This document shows positions 5,608 through 50,960 of a stretch of 64,000 bases of DNA, piece after piece. The stretch is from Chondrilla cf. caribensis. Lineage: Eukaryota > Porifera > Demospongiae > Chondrillida > Chondrillidae. Location: the NCBI GenBank assembly GCA_964020155.1, contig OZ026547.1, positions 320,001 through 384,000 on the forward strand. Reading direction: 5' to 3'. Positions within the stretch are counted from its first letter, which is position 1; each line of letters begins with the position of its first letter. Under the pieces are notes generated by a model. It did no database searches. It was not told the origin of the DNA and worked only from the letters and a program-made list of their open reading frames with translations. The position numbers were made by a program, and so were the translations under genes.

Positions 5608-5611
5608 AACA
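5608..5611. other. Target-site duplication AACA, left copy
   Basis: AACA directly precedes the left terminal repeat. The same AACA follows the right terminal repeat at 19596-19599. Uninterrupted relatives of this repeat contain a single AACA at the site. Confidence 0.85.
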
Positions 5612-5656
5612 AACAGCTTCTTAGAATGACTGTCCCATTCTTATAATGAGTGTTTT
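5612..5656 (+). repeat. Left terminal inverted repeat of the 14-kb element
   Basis: About 45 bp pairs with the reverse complement of 19551-19595, with two mismatches (at 5643 and 5656). The 12-mer TTCTTAGAATGA occurs twice in register inside the right repeat; here the second copy has one change. Such a doubled motif would suit a transposase-binding site, which is inference. Confidence 0.92.
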
Positions 5657-5680
5657 AACAAAATATCCTCAACAAGAAGA

Positions 5681-5686
5681 TTTATT
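5681..5686 (-). terminator. Poly(A) signal of the ParB-like gene
   Basis: TTTATT on plus reads AATAAA on minus, about 150 bp past the stop codon and just inside the left terminal repeat. No clear AATAAA was seen after the stop of the plus-strand gene. Confidence 0.5.
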
Positions 5687-5835
5687 TTGATTGTTTACAA
5701 AATAACCAGATATTTTGGCTACAATTTGGGAATTATGCTTCTTAACTCAATAAATGATTGAAAGTACATCAATAGTTGGCAATAATGTTGGAAAGTTTAC
5801 AAGTGTTGATTAAATGATAGGAATGATGATACAAG

Positions 5836-8800
5836 TTAATGATCTTTGGTGAATAGTTCAAAGTCTTTTCTTATAGAGCATATATTATCTTCTTTATTGC
5901 AAAGAACAATACATCCTCTTGCTTCTTCATTGGCAGCACTTGCAATGTCTGATCCTGCGGGAATTATGAGAGAAAATAGAAAGACTAATTGTAACCCATG
6001 TAATTGTAAGTTTAAAGTTCAGGAATTTGTGATCTGGCTCAGTTTACAAATTTGTGATCCAATTCAGTTTACAAATTTGTGATTCAACTCAGTTCACAAA
6101 TTTGTGATCTGGCTCAGTTTACAAATTTGTGATCTGGCTCAGTTTACAAATTTGTGATCTGGCTCAGTTTACAAATTTGTGATCCAACTCAGTTTACAAA
6201 TTTGTGATTCAACTCAGTTCACAAATTTGTGATCTGGCTCAGTTTACAAATTTGTGATCTGGCTCAGTTTACAAATTTGTGATCTGGCTCAGTTTACAAA
6301 TTTGTGATCTGGCTCAGTTTACAAATTTGTGATCCAGGATGACTCATTTATCATACTTGTGATCCCACAAATTAACCGTAATATTATTGATTGTCGTGCA
6401 ATTGGCAATGTTATTATAGGTATGGAATACAGATTTTCTCGAAATGGACTATTAGATATTCTCATGTTTTTTCTCACCGGAAATTCCTGTGATGTCCAGA
6501 ACAGAGTCCCCTTCACTGCTGAAGGTTCTCACAATGTCCCTCAAGATGGCACTGCCAGATTCGCCCTGAAACAGGTTGTCGTGTGCAATTTTACATCTAC
6601 ATTCTCCAACATGGTAATGGCCAAGTACCAAACAGGCAACTTTCTCTTGCAATGAGAATGGCTCTGTGGATTCTTTAGCTGTACGTATATAAAATTGATA
6701 TGCATCAGACATTGTTTAGTATAAACTTATTACTCTGCTATATACATTGATGGCAAAACCATGTATGTACACATTTCTTGACAGATTCTGAATCAGCCAT
6801 TATGTGATATCAATATGAGGGAATGCAATTCTGTGACTGGAATACGTAGAAGTGAAGGGGCAGAGTTAGGGAATAAATGACAAATTCATATTTAATCTTG
6901 TATAATAGCTCAGCATGACAACTAACTTCTATCATAGCGTTATTTAATAATTTTGTTTCGCCTATGTGTTTGCATTTGCGTTTATTACGCGGTTATATGC
7001 ATTACCAATCGTTTTCCAGTTATCTATCTCGCTATCAAGCCTGTCCCCGCACACGCGCCCGTCCCGCTCTTAACGCCCGTGGTGCGCGTGCGGGGACGGA
7101 CCAGGTAGACTATAATCGCATCACAACAGTCAACTGAGTGCACTCGTGAATACACATCGATCAGCTGTCTGGCCGACGGGGTCTCCCATGAATCGAAGTT
7201 TAGGAAGTTTGATCAATGAAAATTCCACGAAGGTAAGATTAATCTATTATTTGTCGTCGTCTACAGTGGCTGTGAGGAAATTCGTACTGCATGTACATTT
7301 ACCCGCTCAAATCATAGAATCCGAGACTTGTATCATGATTTAGCACGAACTAGTATTGCTACTGGTTAAGCGATCACATGAAAAGAACGATCACAGCCAT
7401 AATCGGCTTCGATCCTCACATTATTAAGCAATGTAACCCTAAACAATCCATCGATTGAGCCTATTTACTAGAAATTGATCTGGAAAACAGTAACTGTTTT
7501 AAATTTGTCTTAGCCCTAATTTAATATGCACTTAACCATGAGATGATAGATGGAAACTAAGTTATACTATGGGATTCAGCCTTCAATTTTGGTGATTATG
7601 TTGGCTAAATAGTACAATATGCTCAGAACATCCTTCTGGCAATAAATTTGAAATGCAACATGATATAATTGAAGTTCTATATTCATCTACTCCTAATTGA
7701 GTTGCATATCTTACTGGAATAACTCTGAAATAAGACACGATTGTTGTTTCTGTGTCCTAAGGATAACCCAGCAGGTGTCTATGAATGTATGCTAAGCATA
7801 TGTCTTACCTTGCGGTATTGTACGACAATGTGTAAATGCCATCAGAGCTTTGTCCATGTTGTTTTCCACAATAGAGAACACCTCCTTACTCTGATGGTAG
7901 GAGCAAAGAATCGCAAGAGTGAACATCTCTTGGATTGCTGTAATGGCATTCACCTGCTTGGCAGCTAATACCAAGGTTAGCAAGTCTGTTCTTATATTAA
8001 ACTCCTATAATAATTAATGTCAGGAAAGAAAATGTTCATTAATTAAAAGCTTATACTGATTGATATTAATAAGCCCCATACCTTCTCAAGAACAGCAATG
8101 ACCAATGTGCTTCCTGAGTAATTTTCTTGCTGTTGACGAATCTTCTGTCCTGTAATGTCCCTAGTATGCACATAGGCCTCAATTTGATTAATATCAGATA
8201 TGCATAATATACCGTTTTCACATGGACGCCGTAAGTGGGTTGAACCTGGGTTGATTTAAATCGGGTTCGACCCGCTTTTGACCTGATTTCCGTTCACATG
8301 GGGATAACAAGATTCGCATATTGTGTAAATATTTCATTTCCAGGAAATGGCGATGTTGGGCGTTCTGCTCATCTTGTTTTAGTTGTGGCATTGCATTGAG
8401 CTCGTAGACAGCAACTAAGGATCAGGTATATGACGAGAAGAGCAGTTATGAACCGTTTTGCGGCAGTACAGACTTTGCAAACTGCTCATTTTTTGGCTTT
8501 CTTGTTCGTTCGGTTCGATAGGGAATTGAAACAGAATTTTTGTGTTGGCACTTTCAACTTTTCATCCCGGGAACTAAAGTGTTTTCTCGAAAGGCAGCAT
8601 GTTATTGCTCAGTAAAATAATAAACTGAGTCGAACTACTATTTATATTAAGCAAAGCTTGGATCTCATCGTCACTCGATGTTCGTCCTACTAGTCCACCA
8701 TTTTTAACTCGCTTCTAACCGGATCAAACCTTAGCTACTTTTTACAAGGGTTTGACTCGGAATTTTAACCTGGGTTCGACCCGGTTTTGTGACGTCATGT

Positions 8801-11800
8801 GAACGCACTAACTCGCTTTAAACCAAGTTCGACTCGGGTTCGACCCGCTGTACAGCGTCCATGTGAATAGGGTAATATTTCTGTTGCATTGCGTGGGGAA
8901 ATATCAGAGGAACATGATTTTTGTGGTTTGGGGTGCCAAACATTGGGGGCTGACTATGATGCTTGAGTAGTAATAAAAACATATATTACATACCTGAATG
9001 AGCCATACATCACTGCAGTTGACGTGGTTTGCACATTTGCTCCGTCAATTGCGGCTTGACAATATCCAATGAATGACGCAGGAAGGCTAGTGCCATCAAA
9101 CTTCAGTTGGGTGAACTCCCGTAGTTTACATTCCTGTGCATACATTGGAAATGACCGGGCTGCTTCCTCCCATGACTGGCATTTCACTGCTCTCGTAAAG
9201 GCCCTTTTGGTTTTATCCATTCTTCGATAGTCTTCAGCAGCTGATTTCATTTCATTGACCTTTTGGCTACCTGAAATGTGTCAACAGGTATATTGATTAG
9301 ATTTTGCATTATTCTTCCTTAGTTTACATGTACATATGTGTATCTTACCATCTAGAACAGATTTCAGCACCTCAATTTGAAACCCATTTGGTAGATTGCA
9401 GAGTGGGGCAAACATGTGAGCTTTGATTTCTGGTCTCTTTCCTTCTTTCAATTTGCTTGTACTAATCTTTTGTCCCTATAGTGAAAGTCACTTCAGTTTT
9501 AAGAGATTTAGTTAAAGCACTTTTATGATATAAGAAGATGGATTAGTTGAAGTAGTATAAATTGATTGAGTAGATATTTTAATAGACCTATTCCAGACTA
9601 ACTAAATTGATTGTGTAATCGCTAAAAGCTGATTATACACTTGCAATATAGAGCTCTTCAAATTACTTTTAAGTTTGAAGTATGATCAAAAATGTATAAG
9701 ACGTTATATCCTGGTGTCCTGCAGCACTTAACTTGTGCCCTGTATTAATAACATCACCTTTGTAAGTCCTTCTTCATATGCCTCCATCACTTTTTCAGCC
9801 AATTCCCACACTTCTGTAGACATGCTAGCCACATTCAGTATATTTCGTTTGTTTGTAGATGACATAGTCTAACAGGCAAATTGGGATAATTAATGAGGTG
9901 TTTATACATATGTGTAATTGTGACTTGTTAGAATTGTTTTGGTATTGTTATTTACTTTAGGAAGGATGTATTCCCCACATTCATCTCTCCACTGTGTTGT
10001 TCCTTGAGGGGCTTCATGAGTAGATTCTAAGTCACCCATTTTGTTCGCGACTCTGAACAACCGAATCCGACAAGCATGGATCTATGGCAGTAGTTTCAAG
10101 AGGAGTGATTGCGCTGAACAATACTGATGTTAGGTGAGCACATTCTACTACAAGAAGTATGTGTACTCACATAGTCCTTGTGAGTGACCTCATGTGACAG
10201 ATGGCTATTGATGTTGTGGCGTTTTGCCAGATGTAAAGCTTCGTCATCTGTCAGGCCAGCATAAACACTTGCTTTTACATTGGCAAAGGTGTGATTTACA
10301 CTAGTCAGCTGTTGTCTTGCTGTTACAGAGTGTAAACCGCCAATGATTTCGTATTTATACTGGTCTTTGAATCTCTCCTGTAGTGTGTAATTTAGTAAAC
10401 TTCAGTTATTACTATTGCTGTTATTATTATTATTACCTTGTGATCTGCATACACATTAATCAGATTTTACTATTTTCTTAACACAAAACCACAATGTTAT
10501 TGATAACTTTGTAAACTTCGTAGATGTGCACATGCCATACATGCATATGTAGGTATGGTTCATAATACTACTGCTATTTTACCATCATATGTGAGCGGAT
10601 CTGAGAAAACAGCCCTCTACTGCACTTTCGTGCATTTGCGTTTTTTGGCATCAATCGATAGCTTGTCTACTCGGCATCACGCTGACGCTTTCGGAATTGC
10701 GATAGCTTGTTCCGTTTATGAGATATGTCGAGTTTAGTATCAGGCACTGAATCGATCGTTTATGGAATAGCATCATTTCCGGTTGTTATTGCGGATTCCG
10801 TATATTCGTTCCGTTACGTCATCTCGTTAAACAAAATGGCGTCGAGTTCACGTACGGTTCCACAGAATGATTTTTCCAAGTCATTTCAGGGACAATGATG
10901 ATAGTTTGAGCCTAGATCGTTCGTATAGACGTTTTTGTATTTTTTATTCGGTATTTGTTCTACTATACCTTTATGTACGTGCTAATTATACGATTACGCG
11001 CCTTGATAGCGGTAGCCGTATAATTTCGTATTGAATAAAATGGTGTACTTCCGAGAGGTGATAATGAGCCGTAAGTCCAAAATTCAACATCGTATGGTCA
11101 CCGCGCTTTCAGGGAACATTCTACTAAACATTTATATCATATTTATGAAAAAAAGAAAATTCGAAAAATTTACACCACAACCTGTTTTGACACCTATCAG
11201 TGTAATCGTAAACAACCTTAGAGGGCTGTTTTCTCAGATCCGCTCACATATCATTGCAGTTATCATTAAATATTTTCAGACCCCTACCACATACGTGGTG
11301 TAAAGCATTACACATTCCCATACCAACGGCCGTGGGTCCATCCGTTTTCTAACAGTATGTTTCTAGGAAAACGCCCATACTTACAACCCTACGTAGTCTT
11401 TCAAAATATGTACTTAAGACAGTAACTGTCCAAACTGATCACTTTGAGTGAGAATAGAGCGTAAGAAGTCAAATGCTTACATTATAGCTCAGAAGAATCC
11501 TCAGAAGGAAACAGCAGATTCGAATGTCAAATAAGACCTGTACGTTGTCTATCAACTATGCCTGTCTGTATAATCTATGCCTGTTTCTATAGCCATGTGT
11601 TTTCACAACAACGCCCATATCGGTGTCTGTATGTTATCACAAAATGGCTGCATCTGTATTAGTACATTTTCACAAAAACGCCCGTATCTGTATCTGATTC
11701 AATCCATACATAGAACTGTAGAATGCCCATAGAACGTCTACTTTTCACACCATATGCCGTATGATGTTCCGACTTAATACATTTACTGTATAGTACAAGG

Positions 11801-13535
11801 TGGAAAAAAGTAAATGTATATGTGTACTCTGAAGCTATATTTACTGATCAAATACACATACAGATACGAGTGTTTTGTAGTAACATCTAGAAACAGACAT
11901 ATGTACTTTAGGGAAAGTACATAATTCCAAATTTGCTGCGTACATACAGGCGTATGTATATGCATATTAGGTTCACTGTTTTGTCATATTATATTTAATA
12001 TAATATGTACATACTCACATACGTATGTCTGGTGTAATACATTTCATACCTCAAAGTCCTCGGTACTTCTGACATCTGCACACAGTAGAGCTACAGATGG
12101 TACACCAGGTCCGTAAGGATCAGCTTTCATATTTTTCTTTAGTTTTTCTAAAAATATTTCATCTATTCCTCGAAGCAGCCTCTCTTTTGGAGGTTCCAAA
12201 CACTGGTTTACTGGCACTGTCATATCACCTGAAAATGAACAGAGTTCTTGACAGATTACTTTGTTAATCCTTGTAATTTATTTACCAACCAATTTTTTTT
12301 CGTTCAATTCGGCTATCTAAGTCCGTGGATACCTGCTTCATTGATGATTGTTTGCTTTTCTTAGATGGATTCCCAGAGGGATTCGGAGCACTTCGCTTAC
12401 CTATACTGACAAGCAGTTCACCGGAGCTGGTACTTATTGGAAGACTATCATCATCTAAAGTTGAGTTGATGCATACATATTTCCGCATGTTAACACAAAC
12501 TGTATTATGTAATACAGTTGAACTAAAGTTTTAATATTATTTCATGACTAGTTGATGTTAGCATATGCTCACCACTTTCCCCATCAGAATCACTAAGCTC
12601 AGTGGTTCGAAAGTCGGTCACTGTTGTCATTGTCTTCACAAAATCCCGTGCTGTTTCACATTTTTGAAACTGCTTTGAAAAGGGATTTCTGTTGTGAACA
12701 AAGTAGTCCACACTCAGAAGTTTACGTCCTTCATCACAGAGAAACTACAGGGAAATATTGGTGTTTAGGAAATAGTATCCTTTCTACCTTTGTTGATTTC
12801 TTTAATGAGATTATTAATACAATACACTAATTCACATACACGTGATACAGTCTGATACTAGATGTTTTTCAGTGATGTGTTTAATTTTCATAGTACCGTA
12901 TTTTACGGGTTATCCCCAGGTGCAACTTATAAACCGTAAAATACGGTAAATGCAGAATGTTACATAACCGTTTGTAATCCTTTTCCAGATTGGGAGAATC
13001 AAACATTTCAATAGAGTGGTGTACCTACGAATGCTAAGGAATGGCGCTACTGAACATTTTGACATTTAAATTTACTCTTACACTAAATAGTACTTTTAAT
13101 TATTACAATGAAGTTATTTTATTATCACCTTTAAATATTATTTCCAATTGTATCCTTTATTATTATTATTATTACAGTATTATATCACTCAACATTCATT
13201 GTGTGACTTTACCTATATACATGGACTAAATAGGTCCTCAATATCTACTCGTACACTGGGATATACATTGCATTATAAATAATACTACTACGTATACTAC
13301 AAATACTATTATACTAAGTCTTAATTACCTCCAGAACAGTCTCCTTTGCAACTTTGAACTTCCGAAGTTTCTGCTGTATTACGTCGTCGGAACTAATTAC
13401 GGCTATCTTAATATCCGTGATATATCCCAGGTCGCCGCCGTCTTGCCTCTTCATCATTTGGCCTTCTACGTCATCCATCAAAGCAATTTTGCCGATATTG
13501 CGGTCGTTAAAAAGGTACCATCGTTTCGAAGGCAT
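5836..13535 (-). CDS. ParB-like domain protein, 13 exons, 667 aa
   Basis: Exons on the minus strand: 13535-13329, 12744-12573, 12454-12401, 12228-12050, 10377-10171, 10081-9956, 9868-9758, 9475-9349, 9270-8994, 8160-8082, 7953-7809, 6678-6478 and 5954-5836. All junctions have GT/AG and matching phase, giving 2004 nt with one terminal stop. Residues about 185-290 look like the ParB/sulfiredoxin-type fold: PGVPSVALLCADV, then YEIIGGLHSVTARQQL (213-228), then VYAGLTDDEALHLAKRHN (242-259), then CRIRLFRVANKMG. I know similar uncharacterised proteins from cnidarians and molluscs by this GGxH / GLTDxEAL / RHN pattern. ParB relatives bind nucleotide and DNA in bacteria; the role here is unknown. The rest is unrecognised. 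In exon 3, reading through the chosen donor gives a basic stretch with KRSAPNPSGNPSKKSKQ, a possible alternative nuclear signal. Acceptor AAGCAG at 7954 is weak but is the phase-compatible choice. The element's own transposase-like gene starts 146 bp away on the other strand. Confidence 0.85.
6021..6337 (+). repeat. 25-bp minisatellite, 13 units, left subterminal
   Basis: Unit ACAAATTTGTGATCTGGCTC plus AGTTT. Variants (ccaattc, ttcaactc, ctggctc) recur in the same order, giving a higher-order period of about five units. It lies in the last intron of the ParB-like gene. The palindromic ACAAATTTGT core is in every full unit. Confidence 0.95.
7040..7097. repeat. GC-rich inverted repeat
   Basis: GTCCCCGCACACGCGCC and GTGGTGCGCGTGCGGGGAC form an imperfect stem around a loop of about 20 nt, inside the 1.1-kb intron 6679-7808 of the ParB-like gene. 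It stands out sharply from the AT-rich surroundings. On plus, an ATG frame follows at 7146-7231, ending NENSTK before a GTAAGA donor-like site, so an antisense promoter with a first exon is possible but unproven. Confidence 0.55.
8211..8873. mobile_element. MITE, 663 bp, TSD AATAT
   Basis: The left end ACCGTTTTCACATGGACGC pairs with the reverse complement of the right end (ACCCTATTCACATGGACGC), with further inner inverted blocks (gttcacatgg / catgtgaacg) and GGGTTCGACCC repeats. AATAT flanks both ends. It lies inside the intron 8161-8993 of the ParB-like gene. No transposase is encoded. Confidence 0.85.
10591..11247. mobile_element. MITE, 657 bp, 29-bp perfect TIRs
   Basis: GTGAGCGGATCTGAGAAAAC and the following 9 bases are repeated inverted at 11219-11247 without mismatch. 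ATAT borders both ends, but it is self-complementary, so it may belong to the repeat rather than the target. It lies inside the intron 10378-12049 of the ParB-like gene. No transposase is evident. Confidence 0.85.
12894..12948. repeat. 55-bp palindromic element with perfect 15-bp arms
   Basis: TACCGTATTTTACGG at 12894-12908 is exactly complementary to 12934-12948, around a 25-nt loop. TA ends suggest a tiny TA-target MITE. It lies inside the first intron of the ParB-like gene. Confidence 0.8.
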
Positions 13536-13680
13536 ATTTCCCCTCTTCTGCTATTTCACTTTGCTTAAACGCGCGCACAATATACCGCCGGCGCCGTGGA
13601 CGAGCTAAGTCAGCTGGTAGCATTTTGTCCAATGATATACGTACGTACGTACTTCATTGCACATATCGAGCAACTGCGAA
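13536..13680. promoter_or_regulatory. Shared divergent promoter between the two element genes
   Basis: Only 145 bp separate the two start codons. The interval holds a CpG-rich patch (gcgcgc, ccgccggcgcc at about 13570-13600), a CCAAT-like tgtccaatga at 13627, and an iterated CGTACGTACGTAC tract at 13638-13651. Bidirectional transcription is inferred from the layout. Confidence 0.6.
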
Positions 13681-16600
13681 ATGGCTTTGGAGTTAGACAT
13701 CGATATTTCGTTCGAAAGCGATAGCGAGCTCGAAAATGTATTTGATTCGCCACCTCCAGAGAAGAAGAGGAAAGACGCCATATTATTGTCGGATGCAGGT
13801 ACAGTATACTGTACTTTATTACGTGTATATACGTATCCGTATCATGCATGCGATAACTGTCAAGTTTTGTAATAAATTCCATCTTACTAAGAGTAGAAAA
13901 AGTCTTACAATGTAAAAATAATACAGTAGTTGTTGTAAATGAAATTATACCTTGTATATTCATATGAATGTCTTAAATAATGGAGTTCAAAACTGTTCAG
14001 AAATTTGTCTTCATGAACCCTGGTGCTACAAAATTAGAAAGAGAAAGTACAATAACTTGGGCAGAAGAGAATATAACATTTTTACATGTGTAATGACCTG
14101 ACCATGGTGTACTGTAAATGCTACTTGGTCGAGTGAGTACACATGGGTTCACTTGTAAGTACATGAAATTTCAAAGAACACATCGGTTGTTATTTTGTTC
14201 AATATAAAAATTACATGAATAAGAACACACACATATCCCAGCCCCTAAACATGCATACACACATAACATATACATGCAAACACCTCATCCCACTTACATT
14301 TGTACATGAGTAAATTCACCTTAAAGTGCCAAAAGACAACGTATCTTTCATTCTTATTATACGAGCCAGACTGTAGCAACTATACCGGTATATGTAAATT
14401 TAAATTATGAAGAATATTATACACTATCACAGTATTATATCCCATGTACGTATGTAGTCACGTGTTGCAGTAGAAACTGCCTACTAAGTTACTCTGAAGA
14501 TGAAAAAGATCAATGTGCAAAAATGTTTGCAAAAAAGTCCGTACACCAGCAACGACAATTCCTACTGGACTTGTTAGTAGCATCACAGCCAGATAACCAT
14601 GGACACAATCAGGTAAAACCACAGACAAGCTAAGGCCTCTCGTTCATACGTATGTACTGTAAATATGACACACACAGAGATAGACAGACAGACAGAACCA
14701 CACACACAAAAGCACACACATACACACGCATTACAGTGGTAATGTACAAATACACATATGTAAATAGCTGTGGATTGTATCAGAGCAATTAGTGATAACT
14801 AATTTCATCTGTTCTTACAATATGTGAGTTACTATTAGCAAATGTTTATATATGACATTGCACCATATTAACAGATACTAGTCAAAGGCAAACATGTTTG
14901 TGATTGTGGCCTCGCTGCACTGATGAATACCACCACCCGTCGCATTAACCGTATAAGAGAACTGTACAAGTCCGGGATCACAACCATAACACCCTTGAAG
15001 CCAACTGGTAGAAAGATTTCCGATAGGTATGTATGTGATAGATGTAGGACAGTTTCATAAATTTACTCTTACAATAAATATATTTTATATACTGTAATTG
15101 TACATCATTCACAAAGGGTGCAACAGGCTGTTGTATGGATGCAAAATTGGTTTGACCTCTTTGGGGACAAAATGCCCGATAGTGAAATGGTACATCTACC
15201 CCACTTTCTATCACGGGAAGGCGTGTACAAAGAGCTGAGAGATGACTTCTGCAGCAAGGGAATGGAGCTGTCGGAGATAATTTCCCTGTCACGCTTCTAT
15301 GTGGTTTGGAATGAAAATTTCCCTAAAGTTTCCATTCCAAAGGTATTCCTCTAGGGCCTGTTAACACTACATACCGTTACTTTCTACGTATATGTGGATC
15401 AGTAACTTTATGTATATGCCTACTCATGGACATAGTGCACCTTTGTACATCTATAATATATGTACGTACCTATTATTACCTATATACATACATATTACAG
15501 ACCAATAGATTTGCTAAATGCGATACATGTGTGATGTACAAAAATGAACGACAAAAATTGTCAGGAAACAAGGCAGGACTGGCAAAATTGGACAGTGAAT
15601 ACAAAATCCACTTGGAAGAAATCAAGTATGTTTGTGAGAATGCTACATAGACCAAATTTTACAACTACTACAATATGAGCTCTCTAAACAGCCATGATAG
15701 ACGTACAGTACAATTATGATCAAATTAAAAAAATTCTATTATCGTGTTGCACTGACATACGTAACTAAGATTACCATGCATGCATAGGTATGTTATGGTG
15801 AAGTTTCTGATGCCAACTGTACATATGTACATAAATTAACAATAGTTGCGTTTGCCTTATAATTAAGGCTGACATCAATCTTGTATACAATATACAGGAT
15901 TGAAAGGTCCTTGTACCACAAGCATATTCAAAAGGCTAGGTCCAATCCCAAGAAGTATTTAACTATCATCATTGATGGAATGGACCAGAAGAAGACCTCA
16001 GTACCTTTCCTACCAACAGAGAGCAAATCTGCTCAAGCAAGTTATAGAGTAGTGTAGTCTAAGAAATATGATCATCACCTGTATATTCATTCCTTCAACA
16101 GGGACTATGGAGACTGAGGACACATTTAACCGGTGCAATTATCCATACTGTAGATCCCAGTGGTAAACAAGTGTATGCTTTTGTAGACATGTTACAGTGG
16201 CCACACGACTCCAATTTAACAATAAATATTCTGGAAGAACTGTTATCAAGATATTGTACTACCAATCAGACCAACCTACCAGAAGTGCTCTACCTACAGA
16301 TGGATAATTGCTACCGGGAAAATAAAAACAGATATATATTTGCATATTGTGCATTGCTTGTTGAGCTCAAGGTTTTTCGTAAGGTGTGCAGCAAATACAC
16401 AGCATTAAATTTAATATTCATGTATACTATGGTTACGATTTTTTCCTATTCAGATACGTATAAACTTTCTGCCCGTGGGACACACTCATGCCGATTGTGA
16501 CCAATTTTTTAGTAGAATATCCCAGCACATTCTTAAGCATGGCATAGAGAGTTTGCAAGGTGCGTGAAACATTAAAGTAAAAAGAGCCAGTAAATACGTC

Positions 16601-19368
16601 CAATACTTAGCACATACGTACATACACATCTATATGCAATTAAAGCTGTGTCATGGAGTACTTGTGTATTATAACTTCAATTTAAAGCAGATTCTACCAC
16701 CATCACTCATATTCTTATTTCCTCCACATTAAAACGAATGTACGTAGATTTATCAAACAAAATTCAAGGTGCATACACACCTACAGCGGAGGTCATCCAT
16801 CTAGACACAATCTTTAATTACAAAGATTATTTAGAGCCTCATGCAACCACCATCAGTGGCCATTCAAAGCCCCTGTGCTTTAAGTTCCAGCTGGATGACA
16901 AAGGCAAAGCACTACTGGATTACAGGGATACCAGTAAAGGCACATGGAAAAGAATACCAACCCCGTTACTTCAGGTATAACTATTATACAGTAGCATATT
17001 ACAAAATTGACTATGTACACTTGTACCATGATGCATAGGCGTTCTTTCATGTGGGCAGGTGTATAATTCACTACACTACCTGAGGTATATTAGCCTGTAA
17101 TACACCTCATTACTATTCACATGGTGTTCTCTGCACAAAGAGATTAAGTTGATGTGTTTACAGAAGCTATGTCTTTAGATGTCTTGCATCATGGTACAAG
17201 ATAGTTATACAATGGGAATGGAAGTTTAGAGATAAACACCTTTGGGCTCCGCCTTCAGGTGTATGAATTGATAAATCTTCAATTCTTATTGTATAACCTA
17301 TACGTATTTCATGTTCAAACACATTTTAAGACACAATTACGCCGTAACATCGATTTACATTGACATATGTACATAGGAACCAAAGTAATCAACCATTGAT
17401 ATGCTACACTTAGTACCTCATGTTCAAAATGAAAGGACGTTCATTCTTCACCGTTGGTGCTTTGGGTCACATACGGTTGCCAGCCGTCTAATGCTGTAGT
17501 TGAAAATACAGGATACAGAGTAACTTCAATTATCAGAAATTTAAAACACAATAGGTAGTCTAGCATAGCCAGCCCTTTATCCACTATCAGAGAAATGGTC
17601 AGATATGATGGCATACCACTTTATTCTGGGAGGTACAGTCAACAATGATCAGCTTCAACCAGGAGGTAATTTACTCCTGTATAACAGTTAGAGGGAAGCT
17701 AAAATTTAGAATACATAGTAAACTTCATGAATTATGAATTAGCTATCCCCAGACTATAATAAGGTACGTAAATGTAATGTGTGCCCAGAAAAAAGAGCAA
17801 TTATACACAGGTATGTATCTACCATGCAGTCACTTCCAGTACTAAGGACACAGCCGGCCACTGTCGATCCATCCATGGATAAAATGGATATACCATATCT
17901 TCAGCGTGACATCCCCAAGTGGGGCAAATGGCTCCAGGAAGACTCGGTAGAAGAATGGGGCATGTTTCTGAAGGAGCCATTACCACCCCCCTCGAGACGT
18001 TGGATGCTACCAATCCTTTTGGCTAATAGCCACGTGAACGTCACCAAACAGCCCAGGGCAGAGAGTATCCTACCCATGATCGCCTCTACATCCTCGGTGA
18101 GCAGTGTGATTTACAAATTGAACACACCACGAATCACACACTGTCATACCACAGACCCTATAAACTACGTCCCTAGTTTAGAGTGTCTATGGGTTACTAT
18201 AAGGTAATTAAGTTAAAGCAAAGCTAAAGGTTGTGATACTAAGGTTCAAAATCGAAATCATCGCGAAGAACACTTACGTGAACAAAAGCTATCCATCACG
18301 ATCCTGTACCTATTCAAAATCTTCCATTAGAGATAGGTCCTCTTCTTCGAGCGTCTATGATCAGATCTTGCTTGAGAACTAGAAAGAGATGAGCGTGATT
18401 CCCAGGCAGCTGGTGAGACGCAGCGCGTTGGCAGTACCGGAAGTACTTACGTAATGTCTCTACGCTAATATACAATAATATTAGTGATATATAATCATTA
18501 TAATTATAATATAAAAAGGGGCAATATCGCGTTACGTAAACAGAGATACGGGTCTTTCAAGTTTTTCAATTCTTTTCTGCGATAAATTCAATCTAAACGT
18601 TTAGTAGAATGTTCCCTGAAAGCGCGGAGACCATTCGAACTTGCGTTTTGGAGCTATGGCTGATTTATTGTCTATCTATAATACGCCATTTTATTCGATA
18701 AGCAGAACACAAATTTGCGCTCTGAGTTAATACTTCAGAACACAAATTTGCGCTCTGGGTTAATACTTCAGAACGCAAATTTGCGCTCTGGGTTAATACT
18801 TCAGAACACAAATTTGCGCTCTGGGTTAATACTTCAGAACACAAATTTGCGCTCTGGGTTAATACTTCAGAACACAAATTTGCACTCTGAGTTAATACTT
18901 CAGAACACAAATTTGTGCTCTGTGTTTGAGTCTTCAGAACACAATTTTGTGTTCCACATTTTCATTGTTCAATGTAATGCACATGTCATCTAATATGTCA
19001 ATTTCTAAATCTTGCTGTAGGTGTCCATAGGCAAGAAGGACATAGTTGGTGTTGAGGACACAACATGTCTTGGGGTTGGCTCTCTTGTGGCAGTCCATGT
19101 AGCAGATTGTCCTCCACCATCTATTGGAAGGGTGGAAGAGATAGAAGGCACAGAAATAAAGGTAGCGTGGCTCAAAGGTGCGTATAACAAAGGTTGGCAG
19201 CCATGGATGGTGGAGGATGAACACAATAAGAGAAGAAAAGTGGAATGGACTGACTGGATATCTAGAAACTCTATTTTACTCTTTGACTTTCATTTAACCA
19301 AAACACAACATTTAAAGAAAGAGACTGTAGCCTGTTTGAAAACTATGTATGACAATCTTGCCATGTAA
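13681..19368 (+). CDS. Transposase-like protein (DUF7869-type) with C-terminal reader-like domain
   Basis: Exons: 13681-13798 (acidic start MALELDIDISFES, then PPPEKKRK), 14471-14612, 14875-15026, 15117-15342, 15501-15625, 15898-16048, 16102-16383, 16454-16559, 16691-16974, 17764-18096 and 19021-19368. Phases match from 14471 onward. The join from exon 1 to 14471 does not fit, so a small exon in between is probably missed. Motifs in order: NCLLSYSEDE, HVCDCGLAAL, a CDTC pair, IIIDGMDQKK (Asp codons 15974 and 15983), LQMDNCYRENKNR (Asp codon 16303) and LPVGHTHADCDQFFSRIS (Asp codons 16493 and 16499). The spacing of these acids suits an RNase-H-fold DDE/D enzyme, which is inference. The family name DUF7869 is from memory. 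The last 115 residues (VGSLVAVHVADC, then IKVAWLKGAYNKGWQPW) resemble a small Tudor/PWWP-like barrel. It is the likely mobility enzyme of the 14-kb element. Confidence 0.82.
16975..17763 (+). other. Long intron of the transposase-like gene, nothing recognised
   Basis: This 789-bp stretch separates two phase-compatible exons. A short frame at about 17560-17650 (SPLSTIREMVRYDGIPLYSG) could be an extra exon, but I could not fit its splice phases. No repeat or element was seen. Confidence 0.4.
18590..18705 (-). mobile_element. Diverged partial copy of the 10591-11247 MITE
   Basis: Read on minus, it matches 11030-11150: GAATAAAATGG, then CCGCGCTTTCAGGGAACATT, then CTACTAAAC, with scattered changes between. 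It lies inside the last intron of the transposase-like gene, right against the 33-bp minisatellite. Confidence 0.65.
18702..18955 (+). repeat. 33-bp minisatellite, 8 units, right subterminal
   Basis: Unit contains ACAAATTTGCGCTCTGG followed by gttaatacttcagaac. It lies in the last intron of the transposase-like gene. Its 17-bp core differs from that of the left minisatellite at two positions. The unit is a multiple of three, so frames stay open on both strands without meaning a protein. Confidence 0.95.
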
Positions 19369-19550
19369 TATTTGTATATATATATGCTTCTTGCCAGCAA
19401 ATTCATAATTGTAAACGATTTTTGAGATAGTAATTTGCAAAAATATATGACTATACTCTCTCAATAATATTCTTTTAATAGTTCTATTCACTAGTCTGGG
19501 AATATTTGTGAAAATGTACAAAAAAGCAAACGAAGCCTAACAGTATTTGT

Positions 19551-19595
19551 GAAACACTCATTCTAAGAATGGGACAGTCATTCTAAGAAGCTGTT
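19551..19595 (-). repeat. Right terminal inverted repeat of the 14-kb element
   Basis: Reverse complement of the left end. Read inward from 19595 it begins AACAGCTTCTTAGAATGAC and carries two exact copies of TTCTTAGAATGA. Similarity to the left end fades after about 45 bp. Confidence 0.92.
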
Positions 19596-19599
19596 AACA
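19596..19599. other. Target-site duplication AACA, right copy
   Basis: AACA followed by gtaatattctttc, the sequence that continues directly after AACA in uninterrupted copies of the surrounding repeat. Confidence 0.85.
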
Positions 19600-24535: not shown

Positions 24536-24719
24536 AAGTAGACAAGAACATTTAGTCTAGTTGATATACCAAAAATTAAAGCAAAATGCAACAGTAATGT
24601 TCTTTCATTTCCTACTTTGGTTGCTGAGTTTTCTCTCTCTGGCTTTCTAAGCTTATAGGTTTAAAAACCTTCACCGAGTATATTTATTGAAGAAATAAAA
24701 AACTTACCACTGTTCACTG

Positions 24720-29400: not shown

Positions 29401-29479
29401 GTACATTTAGTCTAGTTAATATACCAAAAATTAAAGCAAAATACAACAGTAATATTCTTTCATTACCTTCATTGGTTGG

Positions 29480-30734: not shown

Positions 30735-31149
30735 TCCGCTGTGTGCTTTCAATTCCGCCAAAACTGCTACTTGAAATGCAATCATAGATACTAGACAAAA
30801 ATTGGGATAGCAAACGCATGACGTCACACATTGGAACCTCCATTTACCTTCATCGGTTGAGTTTTTTCCCATTTCCCTTTCCCTTTGGAGCTTGAGACGG
30901 TTGCTATGAACATTGAAAAAATAATATAATTAATATAATTAAAGAATACGGGTCTTCCAGTACCTCTAAACTGTATATTATAAAGAAAAACATACAGACA
31001 GGGTGAATCACATGGCATAACCACAGAGTATGGCCGCATACCACATGGCATATGGAATTTTACATGACAATAGCTTAATTGACCTGGTCATGGATGAGGG
31101 ATTGGATTATTGTCTCTCCACCAGCGAAGGCCAAGCAAGTGGCCCTAAA

Positions 31150-31370
31150 CTAAACTTACCTTTGTGATATTCCCACCCTACACAAAGGGCACGTAGGCTT
31201 CATTTGTTCCACTTGTATTGCCCTCATCTGTCTCTATACACACTAGGCAAAAAACATGCCCGCATCCCAAAATATGTGCATTTTCGAGTATCTCAAGACG
31301 ATAGCTTAACTGACCTGCTCTTGGATGAGGGATCAGATTGTCTCTTGACCAGTCAATCACAAGAATATTG
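31150..31370 (-). pseudogene. RING-like exon, frame broken before CPLC
   Basis: Minus frame GQLSYRLEILENAHILGCGH then VFCLVC gives the middle of a RING finger. The distal part QMKPTCPLCRVGISQ is present but one base out of frame. The plus-strand copy at 50406-50610 shows the same offset. Confidence 0.55.
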
Positions 31371-31684
31371 ATGGTCTTTCTTGGCTCGATGTTACTATCA
31401 ATTTATGTCCTTTAATGCAGTTTTTGCAGAATGTCTGATATTGTATTCAGTAACTACACTACTGTGAAGATTATTACCCTACATAGTTCTTGCTTGCTTT
31501 CTGCTCTAGAGTGTTGCTGGGGGATTTTCCCTCACCAAATGCGGCCACCCCATCCAGGGCCAATAATAGATAATTTTAAGACAAGGTAATCATGTAATCT
31601 CAAAGAAGAACAACAATAAAAAATCAGCAATTATTAAAGTCTCAAATAAAATAATCAGTAATTTAAAAACTACTGTATGCAACT

Positions 31685-50051: not shown

Positions 50052-50405
50052 TAGTTTTTAAATTACTGATTATTTTATTTGAGACTTTAATGATTACTGA
50101 TTATTTTATTTGAGACTTTAATAATTACTGATTATTTTATTGTTGATTGCAATTGTTCTTCTTTGAGATTACAATGATTACCTTGTCTTGAAATTATCTA
50201 CTATTGGCCCTGGATGGGGTGGCCCCATTGGTGAGGGAAAATCCCCCAGCAACACTCCAGAGCAGAAAGCAAGCAAGAACTATGTAGGGTAATAATCTTC
50301 ACAGTAGTGTAGTTACTGAATACAATATCACACATTCTGCAAAAACTGCATTAAAGGGCATATATTGATAGTAACATCGAGCCAAGAAAGACCATCAATA
50401 TTCTT

Positions 50406-50960
50406 GTGATTGACTGGTCAAGAGACAATCTGATCCCTCGTCCAAGAGCAGGTCAGTTAAGCTATCGTCTTGAGATACTCGAAAATGCACATTTTTTGAG
50501 ATGCGGGCATGTTTTTTGCCTAGTGTGTATAGAGACAGATGTGGGCAATACAAGCGGAACAAATGAAGCCTACGTGCCCTTTGTGTAGGGTGGAAATATC
50601 ACAAAGGTAAGTTTAGTTTAGGGCCACTTGCTTGGCCTTCGCTGGTGGAGAGACAATAATCCAATCCCTCATCCATGACCAGGTCAATTAAGCTATTGCC
50701 ATGTAAAATTCCATATGCCATGTGGTATGCGGCCATACTCTGTGGTTATGCCATGTGATTCACCCTGTCTGTATCTCAAGTGGCCGTTGAACACTGCTTA
50801 TATGCCATATGTACATACACTTGCTGTGTTAACCTGCAGAATCCAGGGCCACTTGCTTGGCCTACGTTGGACAAGGGACAATCCAATCCAACACAGAATG
50901 CACACAGAGAAGGGAGGAGCTTGTGGGCTTGTCCAAATTGTATATTAAAACCATTTAATT
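50406..50960 (+). pseudogene. RING-like exon and CPNC-type end
   Basis: 50440-50545: GQLSYRLEILENAHFLRCGH, VFCLVC. 50550-50605: AIQAEQMKPTCPLCRVEISQ, one base out of frame, with a GTAAG donor. Then 50640-50720 repeats the lead-in, and 50845-50945 is a REGRSLWACPNC-type tail. Confidence 0.5.

Follow-up and report, generated by a model that had tools for sequence, protein, structure and literature searches.

A large two-gene DNA transposon in a sponge genome with a likely DUF7869 transposase, a recurrent second gene and palindrome arrays inside both ends

The window analysed here is a stretch of 64,000 nucleotides from the sponge Chondrilla cf. caribensis (contig C2, 320001-384000), and its contents were compared with the host genome (137 Mb, 37 contigs). 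It holds an element with inverted ends, two divergent multi-exon genes and a tandem array of palindromes inside each end. The inverted repeats and a near-fixed duplication size at several insertions support the identification of this element as a cut-and-paste DNA transposon. One gene encodes a DUF7869 protein, likely a DDD transposase, while the other is a recurrent partner of DUF7869 and not a one-off. By analogy with two-protein transposons, the element may move by means of the transposase together with a second protein that binds the palindrome arrays and joins the ends, a reading to which a probability of about 0.5 is given. The arrays are the most telling feature of the element, and had not been connected with it in the sequence-only reading that preceded this analysis.

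The element, its ends and its copies

The element proper spans 13,984 bp (5612-19595; Table 1). The interval first given, 5608-19599, takes in both copies of the AACA duplication, which itself stands. The terminal inverted repeats are 44 bp long with one mismatch, and the next base is a second mismatch, in agreement with the earlier description of about 45 bp with two mismatches. The termini read AACAGC...GCTGTT, and the CACTA-type terminal sequence of En/Spm elements is absent. Uninterrupted paralogues of the target repeat had been reported in the window; when compared with 44 bases of the joined flanks, they match at 40 of 44 positions at 29425 and at 38 of 44 at 24570. Six places in all reach at least 34 of 44; when 60 random chimeras were compared with the first 30 kb of the window, none scored above 27.

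Contig C1 carries another full-length copy (3067455-3080644, 13,190 bp), which is 99% identical, has matching ends and shows an AGTA duplication of its own. The third copy lies on C16 and is truncated by 830 bp at its left end. The three copies differ by 0.6-1.1% outside exons and by 0.3% in exons (gaps excluded); the gaps are mainly due to array length, the C16 truncation and a 661-bp insertion unique to the window copy. Two complete elements of a diverged subfamily, both with matching inverted ends, are also present on the same contig as the window: C2b (4675921-4691353, 15,433 bp, duplication TGAAT) and C2c (5338779-5354660, 15,882 bp, duplication GAGT). The duplication is therefore 4 bp long in three of the four complete elements (AACA, AGTA, GAGT) and 5 bp in one. 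Since transposase exons 3-8 were not found in C2b, and no DUF7869 match was obtained at C2c, where the last transposase exon is present at the end, both are probably non-autonomous. The search for further copies with both genes and 4-bp duplications, which the sequence-only reading had proposed, yielded the full copy with AGTA at C1; the diverged element C2c also has a 4-bp duplication, GAGT. Its description of a complete two-gene DNA transposon with an empty site is borne out by the sister copies, the four different duplications and the occurrence of the genes together at 15 loci.

An alternative is that the two genes are host genes at a conserved locus, with inverted repeats that arose by coincidence or as an assembly artefact. 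Their intron density is host-like, and full-length homologues of the transposase are filed as uncharacterized proteins in other animals. However, near-identical copies on three contigs, four element-specific duplications and the empty-site paralogues make this explanation very hard to credit. An assembly artefact, named earlier as a possible refutation, is unlikely because of the full copy with its own duplication on C1 and the truncated copy on C16.

Several side observations concern the element and its relatives. The insertion at 10586-11246 has 36-bp inverted ends (97%) and lies in an intron of the second gene; the corresponding C1 site is clean, with one ATAT. Another stretch in a second-gene intron, 8218-8877, looks MITE-like and has GGGTTCGACCCG-type sequence in inverted orientation; it was noticed by eye. 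On C9 there are five right-end relics (1781973, 1833918, 1843169, 1852861 and 1902518) that share almost the same flank; three of them are spaced 9-10 kb apart, as if borne by a repeated segment. On C2, two copies of one element (5473960-5487623 and 5554570-5568224) lie about 80.6 kb apart with nearly identical hit spacing, which suggests a segmental duplication.

Two genes that recur as a divergent pair

Both gene models were built by hand from open frames and splice sites. The outward-facing genes together cover 5836-19368, with start codons 145 bases apart. The multi-exon, divergent arrangement had been recognised from the start, and the exon counts of 13 and at least 11 become 13 (minus strand) and 12 (plus strand) in the new models. 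The transposase model has a GC donor at one intron, and its exon 1-2 junction is the least certain. The C1 copy keeps all exons, frames and splice sites of both genes, so that the earlier claim of intact frames holds in the full sister copy; the C16 copy keeps them all except the last exon (13) of the second gene, which is lost. Among the three copies, there are 17 synonymous and 4 nonsynonymous changes in exons (sites: 953 versus 3,514), which suggests that the copies were under selection until recently. The second gene alone accounts for 4 changes, 3 silent and 1 not; given this number and the shared ancestry of the copies, p-values on silent and non-silent changes serve as a guide.

A search of the genome with the second protein gave at least 75 exon matches, a lower bound as 63 of 92 candidates were scored, and these were grouped into 17 loci. 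For DUF7869, 56 matches fall into 24 loci, 18 intron-split and 6 unsplit, one of the latter (C10:2329269) being below the cut-off. The second gene lies no more than 12 kb away at 15 of the 24 DUF7869 loci, and in each of these 15 pairs the genes diverge as they do in the window; with the 18 intron-split loci placed at random, 0.08 pairs would be expected. At a diverged locus on C8, all 13 second-gene exons were found. The nine DUF7869 loci that lack the second gene are C5:3357, C19:2153, C7:2160 and the six unsplit ones. Unsplit DUF7869 genes with neither second gene nor exact arrays, at C3:3661383, C2:6210000, C16:4618964, C1:7830713 (a 2351-codon frame) and C6:2679022, apparently form a separate lineage of this transposase.

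Palindrome arrays inside both ends

The left and right arrays of the window lie 0.4-0.9 kb from the element ends and have different unit sequences. In the window, the left array contains 12 copies of CAAATTTG and the right array 7, with one more between them. In the other sequence retrieved (131,655 bases, among them the C9 relics and the C5:3357 locus, which has no array), the motif occurs a single time. Unit lengths vary elsewhere, with 35-bp and 40-bp units in C2b and C2c and a 35-bp unit at the left end of the C8 locus, and the units are alike only in one palindrome, usually (C)ACAAATTTG(TG). At C20, C24, C9 and C1:7704, Tandem Repeats Finder detected no array of this sort within the 1.5-kb ends, although exact pairs of the palindrome core are present at C20.

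Pairs of ACAAATTTG sites separated by 14-44 bases were found 95 times in the genome, compared with 4 times for a reversed control. Grouped by eye, the exact arrays form 25 clusters in 137 Mb. Twenty-one of these are located within 21 kb of a second-gene locus, on sides where element ends are known or expected; the remaining four are single stray pairs, equal to the control number. An exact array is present at 13 of the 17 second-gene loci and at none of the nine DUF7869 loci without a second gene (Fisher p 0.0005, an optimistic value, as several of the loci are near-identical copies of one another). Exact arrays are missing from four second-gene loci: C2:5760, C1:7991, C5:2302 and C2:4586.

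Subterminal motifs bound by transposases are common. It might therefore be argued that recognition of the arrays falls to the transposase or to a host factor, and that the second protein has an unrelated role, as a passenger or a regulator. DUF7869 leaves a long N-terminal region of the transposase uncovered, and the arrays are close enough to the ends to be within its reach. Nevertheless, this explanation is unlikely, given that the arrays track the second gene and not DUF7869, and that the second gene is kept at 15 loci with no excess of amino-acid changes between copies.

The likely transposase

The transposase matches DUF7869 (PF25273) with E 1.4e-62 and 211 bits, compared with a curated cut-off of 26, over positions 1-190 of the 192 in the profile. 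The candidate catalytic triad is D285, D373 and D415. All 38 lettered rows of the alignment have D at the third position; a neighbouring E, found in 36 of 38, is A in the window. An integrase-like core is predicted in a homologue. Sponges (Amphimedon, Ephydatia) are among the best matches of the full-length animal homologues, and a scan of viral contigs by short peptide patterns found no relative. The DUF7869 protein is likely a DDD transposase.

The second protein

No significant match to any family was obtained for the second protein. Exons 4-5 are ParB-like by eye, a likeness without significance in any test. PF02195, the ParB N-terminal domain, has no match in the host genome, and hhalign against a ParB profile gives a probability of 2.3% for the whole protein and 3% for the domain. 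A local profile comparison aligns the ParB box and scores above 40 of 40 shuffles, yet the probability is 3% and the global mode shows nothing. The ParB yardsticks were YbdM of E. coli and 65 of 71 viral relatives; SopB of plasmid F, which gave no PF02195 match, and a phage P1 parB region were left unused. For one diverged copy of the protein, PF20188 is matched at E 0.013, below its cut-off.

Exons 12-13 show a likeness to the motif I region of N6/N4 methyltransferases. The piece encoded by these two exons matches PF01555 at E 0.0095 and the whole protein does so at E 0.15, both below the curated cut-off, and a phage methyltransferase family matches the C-terminal exons weakly at E 0.1. The catalytic motif [DNS]PP[YFW] is absent from all three models, two of which (window and C8) include the C-terminal part, and PF01555 has no match in the host genome at E up to 10.

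Relatives of the second protein are scarce. Scans by short peptide patterns found none in viral or genome contigs. In a protein collection, where the 7,995 candidates with the most shared words were scored, the protein alone gave no match and its alignment gave one 326-aa metagenome protein. A partial fold model (metagenome protein P0121 with window exons) reached pLDDT 52.6. Nothing in the viral fold library matched at E <=0.001.

Some leads were pursued and dropped. The ParB-like core of a diverged copy matched phages best (E 0.2), with 99 mycobacteriophage records, and several of the 20 listed are annotated as DNA methylase. In the one protein aligned, the match falls in the helicase part and not in a ParB domain, so kinship with phages was set aside as chance. 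Plasmid matches came to 4 records, at E 3 to 6. In the PDB, dTor designed repeat proteins matched at best with E 2.8e-10 over one 28-residue helix-like stretch, none passing alone, and a phosphomannomutase matched the core profile at E 1.1; both were read as composition matches, not kinship.

A proposed mechanism

In the mechanism proposed here, the transposase would bind the inverted ends, cut there and insert the element at a 4-bp stagger in the target DNA. The second protein, with a putative ParB-like fold and a degenerate methyltransferase-like tail, would read the palindromes, probably as a dimer, and would bridge both arrays, thus keeping the ends together across 13 kb or more. It may also repress, regulate or mark the element. 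In a bolder and rather doubtful version, the element represents a lineage of animal transposons, perhaps a separate superfamily, that relies on a parS-like system to move. Here, a dedicated ParB-like protein would load on the palindrome arrays and pair the ends across 12 to >21 kb, and the dead methyltransferase domain would be kept as a structural or reader part.

The second protein could instead be a ParB-guided DNA methyltransferase, or a dead relative of one, that marks the DNA of the element to tune its silencing; the arrays would then guide marking and not end pairing. The weak matches of the C-terminal exons point in this direction, as do the same layout and domain pair described for the Ectocarpus element Sola1-1_Ec32. 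However, the catalytic motif is missing where the tail is included in the models, and PF01555 is without a match in the genome, which makes this account improbable.

How the ends of very large DNA transposons, separated by 13 kb or more, come together in one complex is an open question of practical interest. The end-pairing mechanism is directly testable, because one genome brings together the conserved site and the conserved second protein with recent copies that appear intact.

Relation to known systems

ParB-parS partition systems of bacteria comprise a ParB-type protein and arrays of a palindromic site. Arrays of a palindromic site and, by eye, a ParB-like protein are common to those systems and the present element; in contrast, there is no sign of a partition role here, and the ParB homology is without statistical support.

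The sequence-only reading knew of no named superfamily with such a pairing of gene products, and this did not hold. According to a recent paper, Sola1-1_Ec32, a giant element of Ectocarpus, encodes a ParB-like and DNA-methyltransferase protein opposite the transposase strand; similar proteins are said to be known from green and red algal transposons, and marking of element DNA to tune silencing was proposed for the algal accessory proteins (PMC12477816, 2025). Sola elements have a DDD transposase and 4-bp duplications (PMC10741241). The likeness to Sola1 comprises a giant DNA transposon, a second gene opposite the transposase, a product that looks ParB- and methyltransferase-like and a 4-bp duplication; it is a comparison of published descriptions (layout, domain pair, duplication length). 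The host here is an animal by closest protein matches, and the tail lacks the catalytic motif. Palindrome arrays are present at both ends here, while the available text on Sola1-1_Ec32 makes no mention of them (PMC12477816).

The nearest working model is En/Spm of maize, also the best-studied parallel: there, TNPA attaches to subterminal repeats and is required along with TNPD, the putative transposase (PMC2613891). Similar to the present element, En/Spm (CACTA) is multi-exon and has two proteins, one acting on subterminal repeats and the other a putative transposase, and the repeat units differ between CACTA families as they do between subfamilies here (PMC2613891). The inverted repeats of CACTA elements are short and of the CACTA type, and their duplication is 3 bp long (Tgmt*), unlike the 44-bp repeats and 4-5-bp duplications found here, and En/Spm obtains its two proteins by alternative splicing and not from two divergent genes. 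Fungal transposons carrying TET/JBP are likewise DNA transposons, of several superfamilies, with a second, DNA-modifying gene; they differ in that gene and, in the text available, in superfamily and duplication length (PMC12730594).

In the open-licence literature searched, no mention of DUF7869 was found, only the Ectocarpus paper looked relevant to ParB with transposons, and nothing relevant was found on Sola1 in sponges. Since the algal Sola1 has a ParB and methyltransferase gene opposite its transposase, the layout is already of a known kind. New within that literature are the animal example, the conserved pairing across diverged subfamilies, the tail without a catalytic motif, the family-marking palindrome arrays and DUF7869 as a likely transposase. 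If the proposed reading is true, ParB-type transposon accessory proteins, reported from algae in the sources cited, would extend to animals, and the unnamed domain DUF7869 would gain a role as a transposase.

Feature coordinates

Table 1. Features of the element, in positions of the window.
Feature	Position	Strand	Evidence
Left target site duplication AACA	5608-5611		empty-site match
Left terminal inverted repeat, 44 bp, 1 mismatch to partner	5612-5655	+	
Second gene, 13 predicted exons, 704 aa	5836-13535	-	exons in C1, C16 and C8
Second-gene exons	13535-13329, 12744-12573, 12454-12290, 12228-12050, 10377-10171, 10081-9956, 9868-9758, 9475-9349, 9270-8994, 8160-8082, 7953-7809, 6678-6478, 5954-5836	-	
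Exons 12-13, degenerate N6/N4 methyltransferase-like tail (EGDSVLDITGISGSD), no [DNS]PP[YFW]	5836-6678	-	weak PF01555
Left subterminal array, 25-bp unit x 12.4, 12 exact CAAATTTG sites (6047-6329)	6024-6334		
Exons 4-5, most conserved part, ParB-like by eye (PSVALLC, IIGGLHSVTA, LTDDEALHLAKRHNIN)	10171-12228	-	alignments
Nested insertion, 661 bp, palindromic ends, outside the element's core	10586-11246		absent from C1, C16
Transposase gene, 12 predicted exons, 783 aa	13681-19368	+	full-length animal homologues; kept in copies
Transposase exons	13681-13798, 14458-14612, 14875-15026, 15117-15342, 15501-15625, 15898-16036, 16102-16383, 16454-16559, 16691-16974, 17593-17665, 17753-18096, 19021-19368	+	
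Predicted catalytic region with DUF7869 (PF25273, residues 302-516), exons 6-9	15898-16974	+	profile match, alignment column counts
Right subterminal array, 33-bp unit x 7.5, 7 exact CAAATTTG sites (18710-18915)	18703-18949		
C-terminal BAH-like domain (last exon)	19021-19365	+	
Right terminal inverted repeat	19552-19595	-	
Right target site duplication AACA	19596-19599		empty-site match

Outside the element, the right part of the window contains a 547-bp inverted repeat (30992-31538 and 50228-50774, 98% complementary), with more inverted pairs around it.
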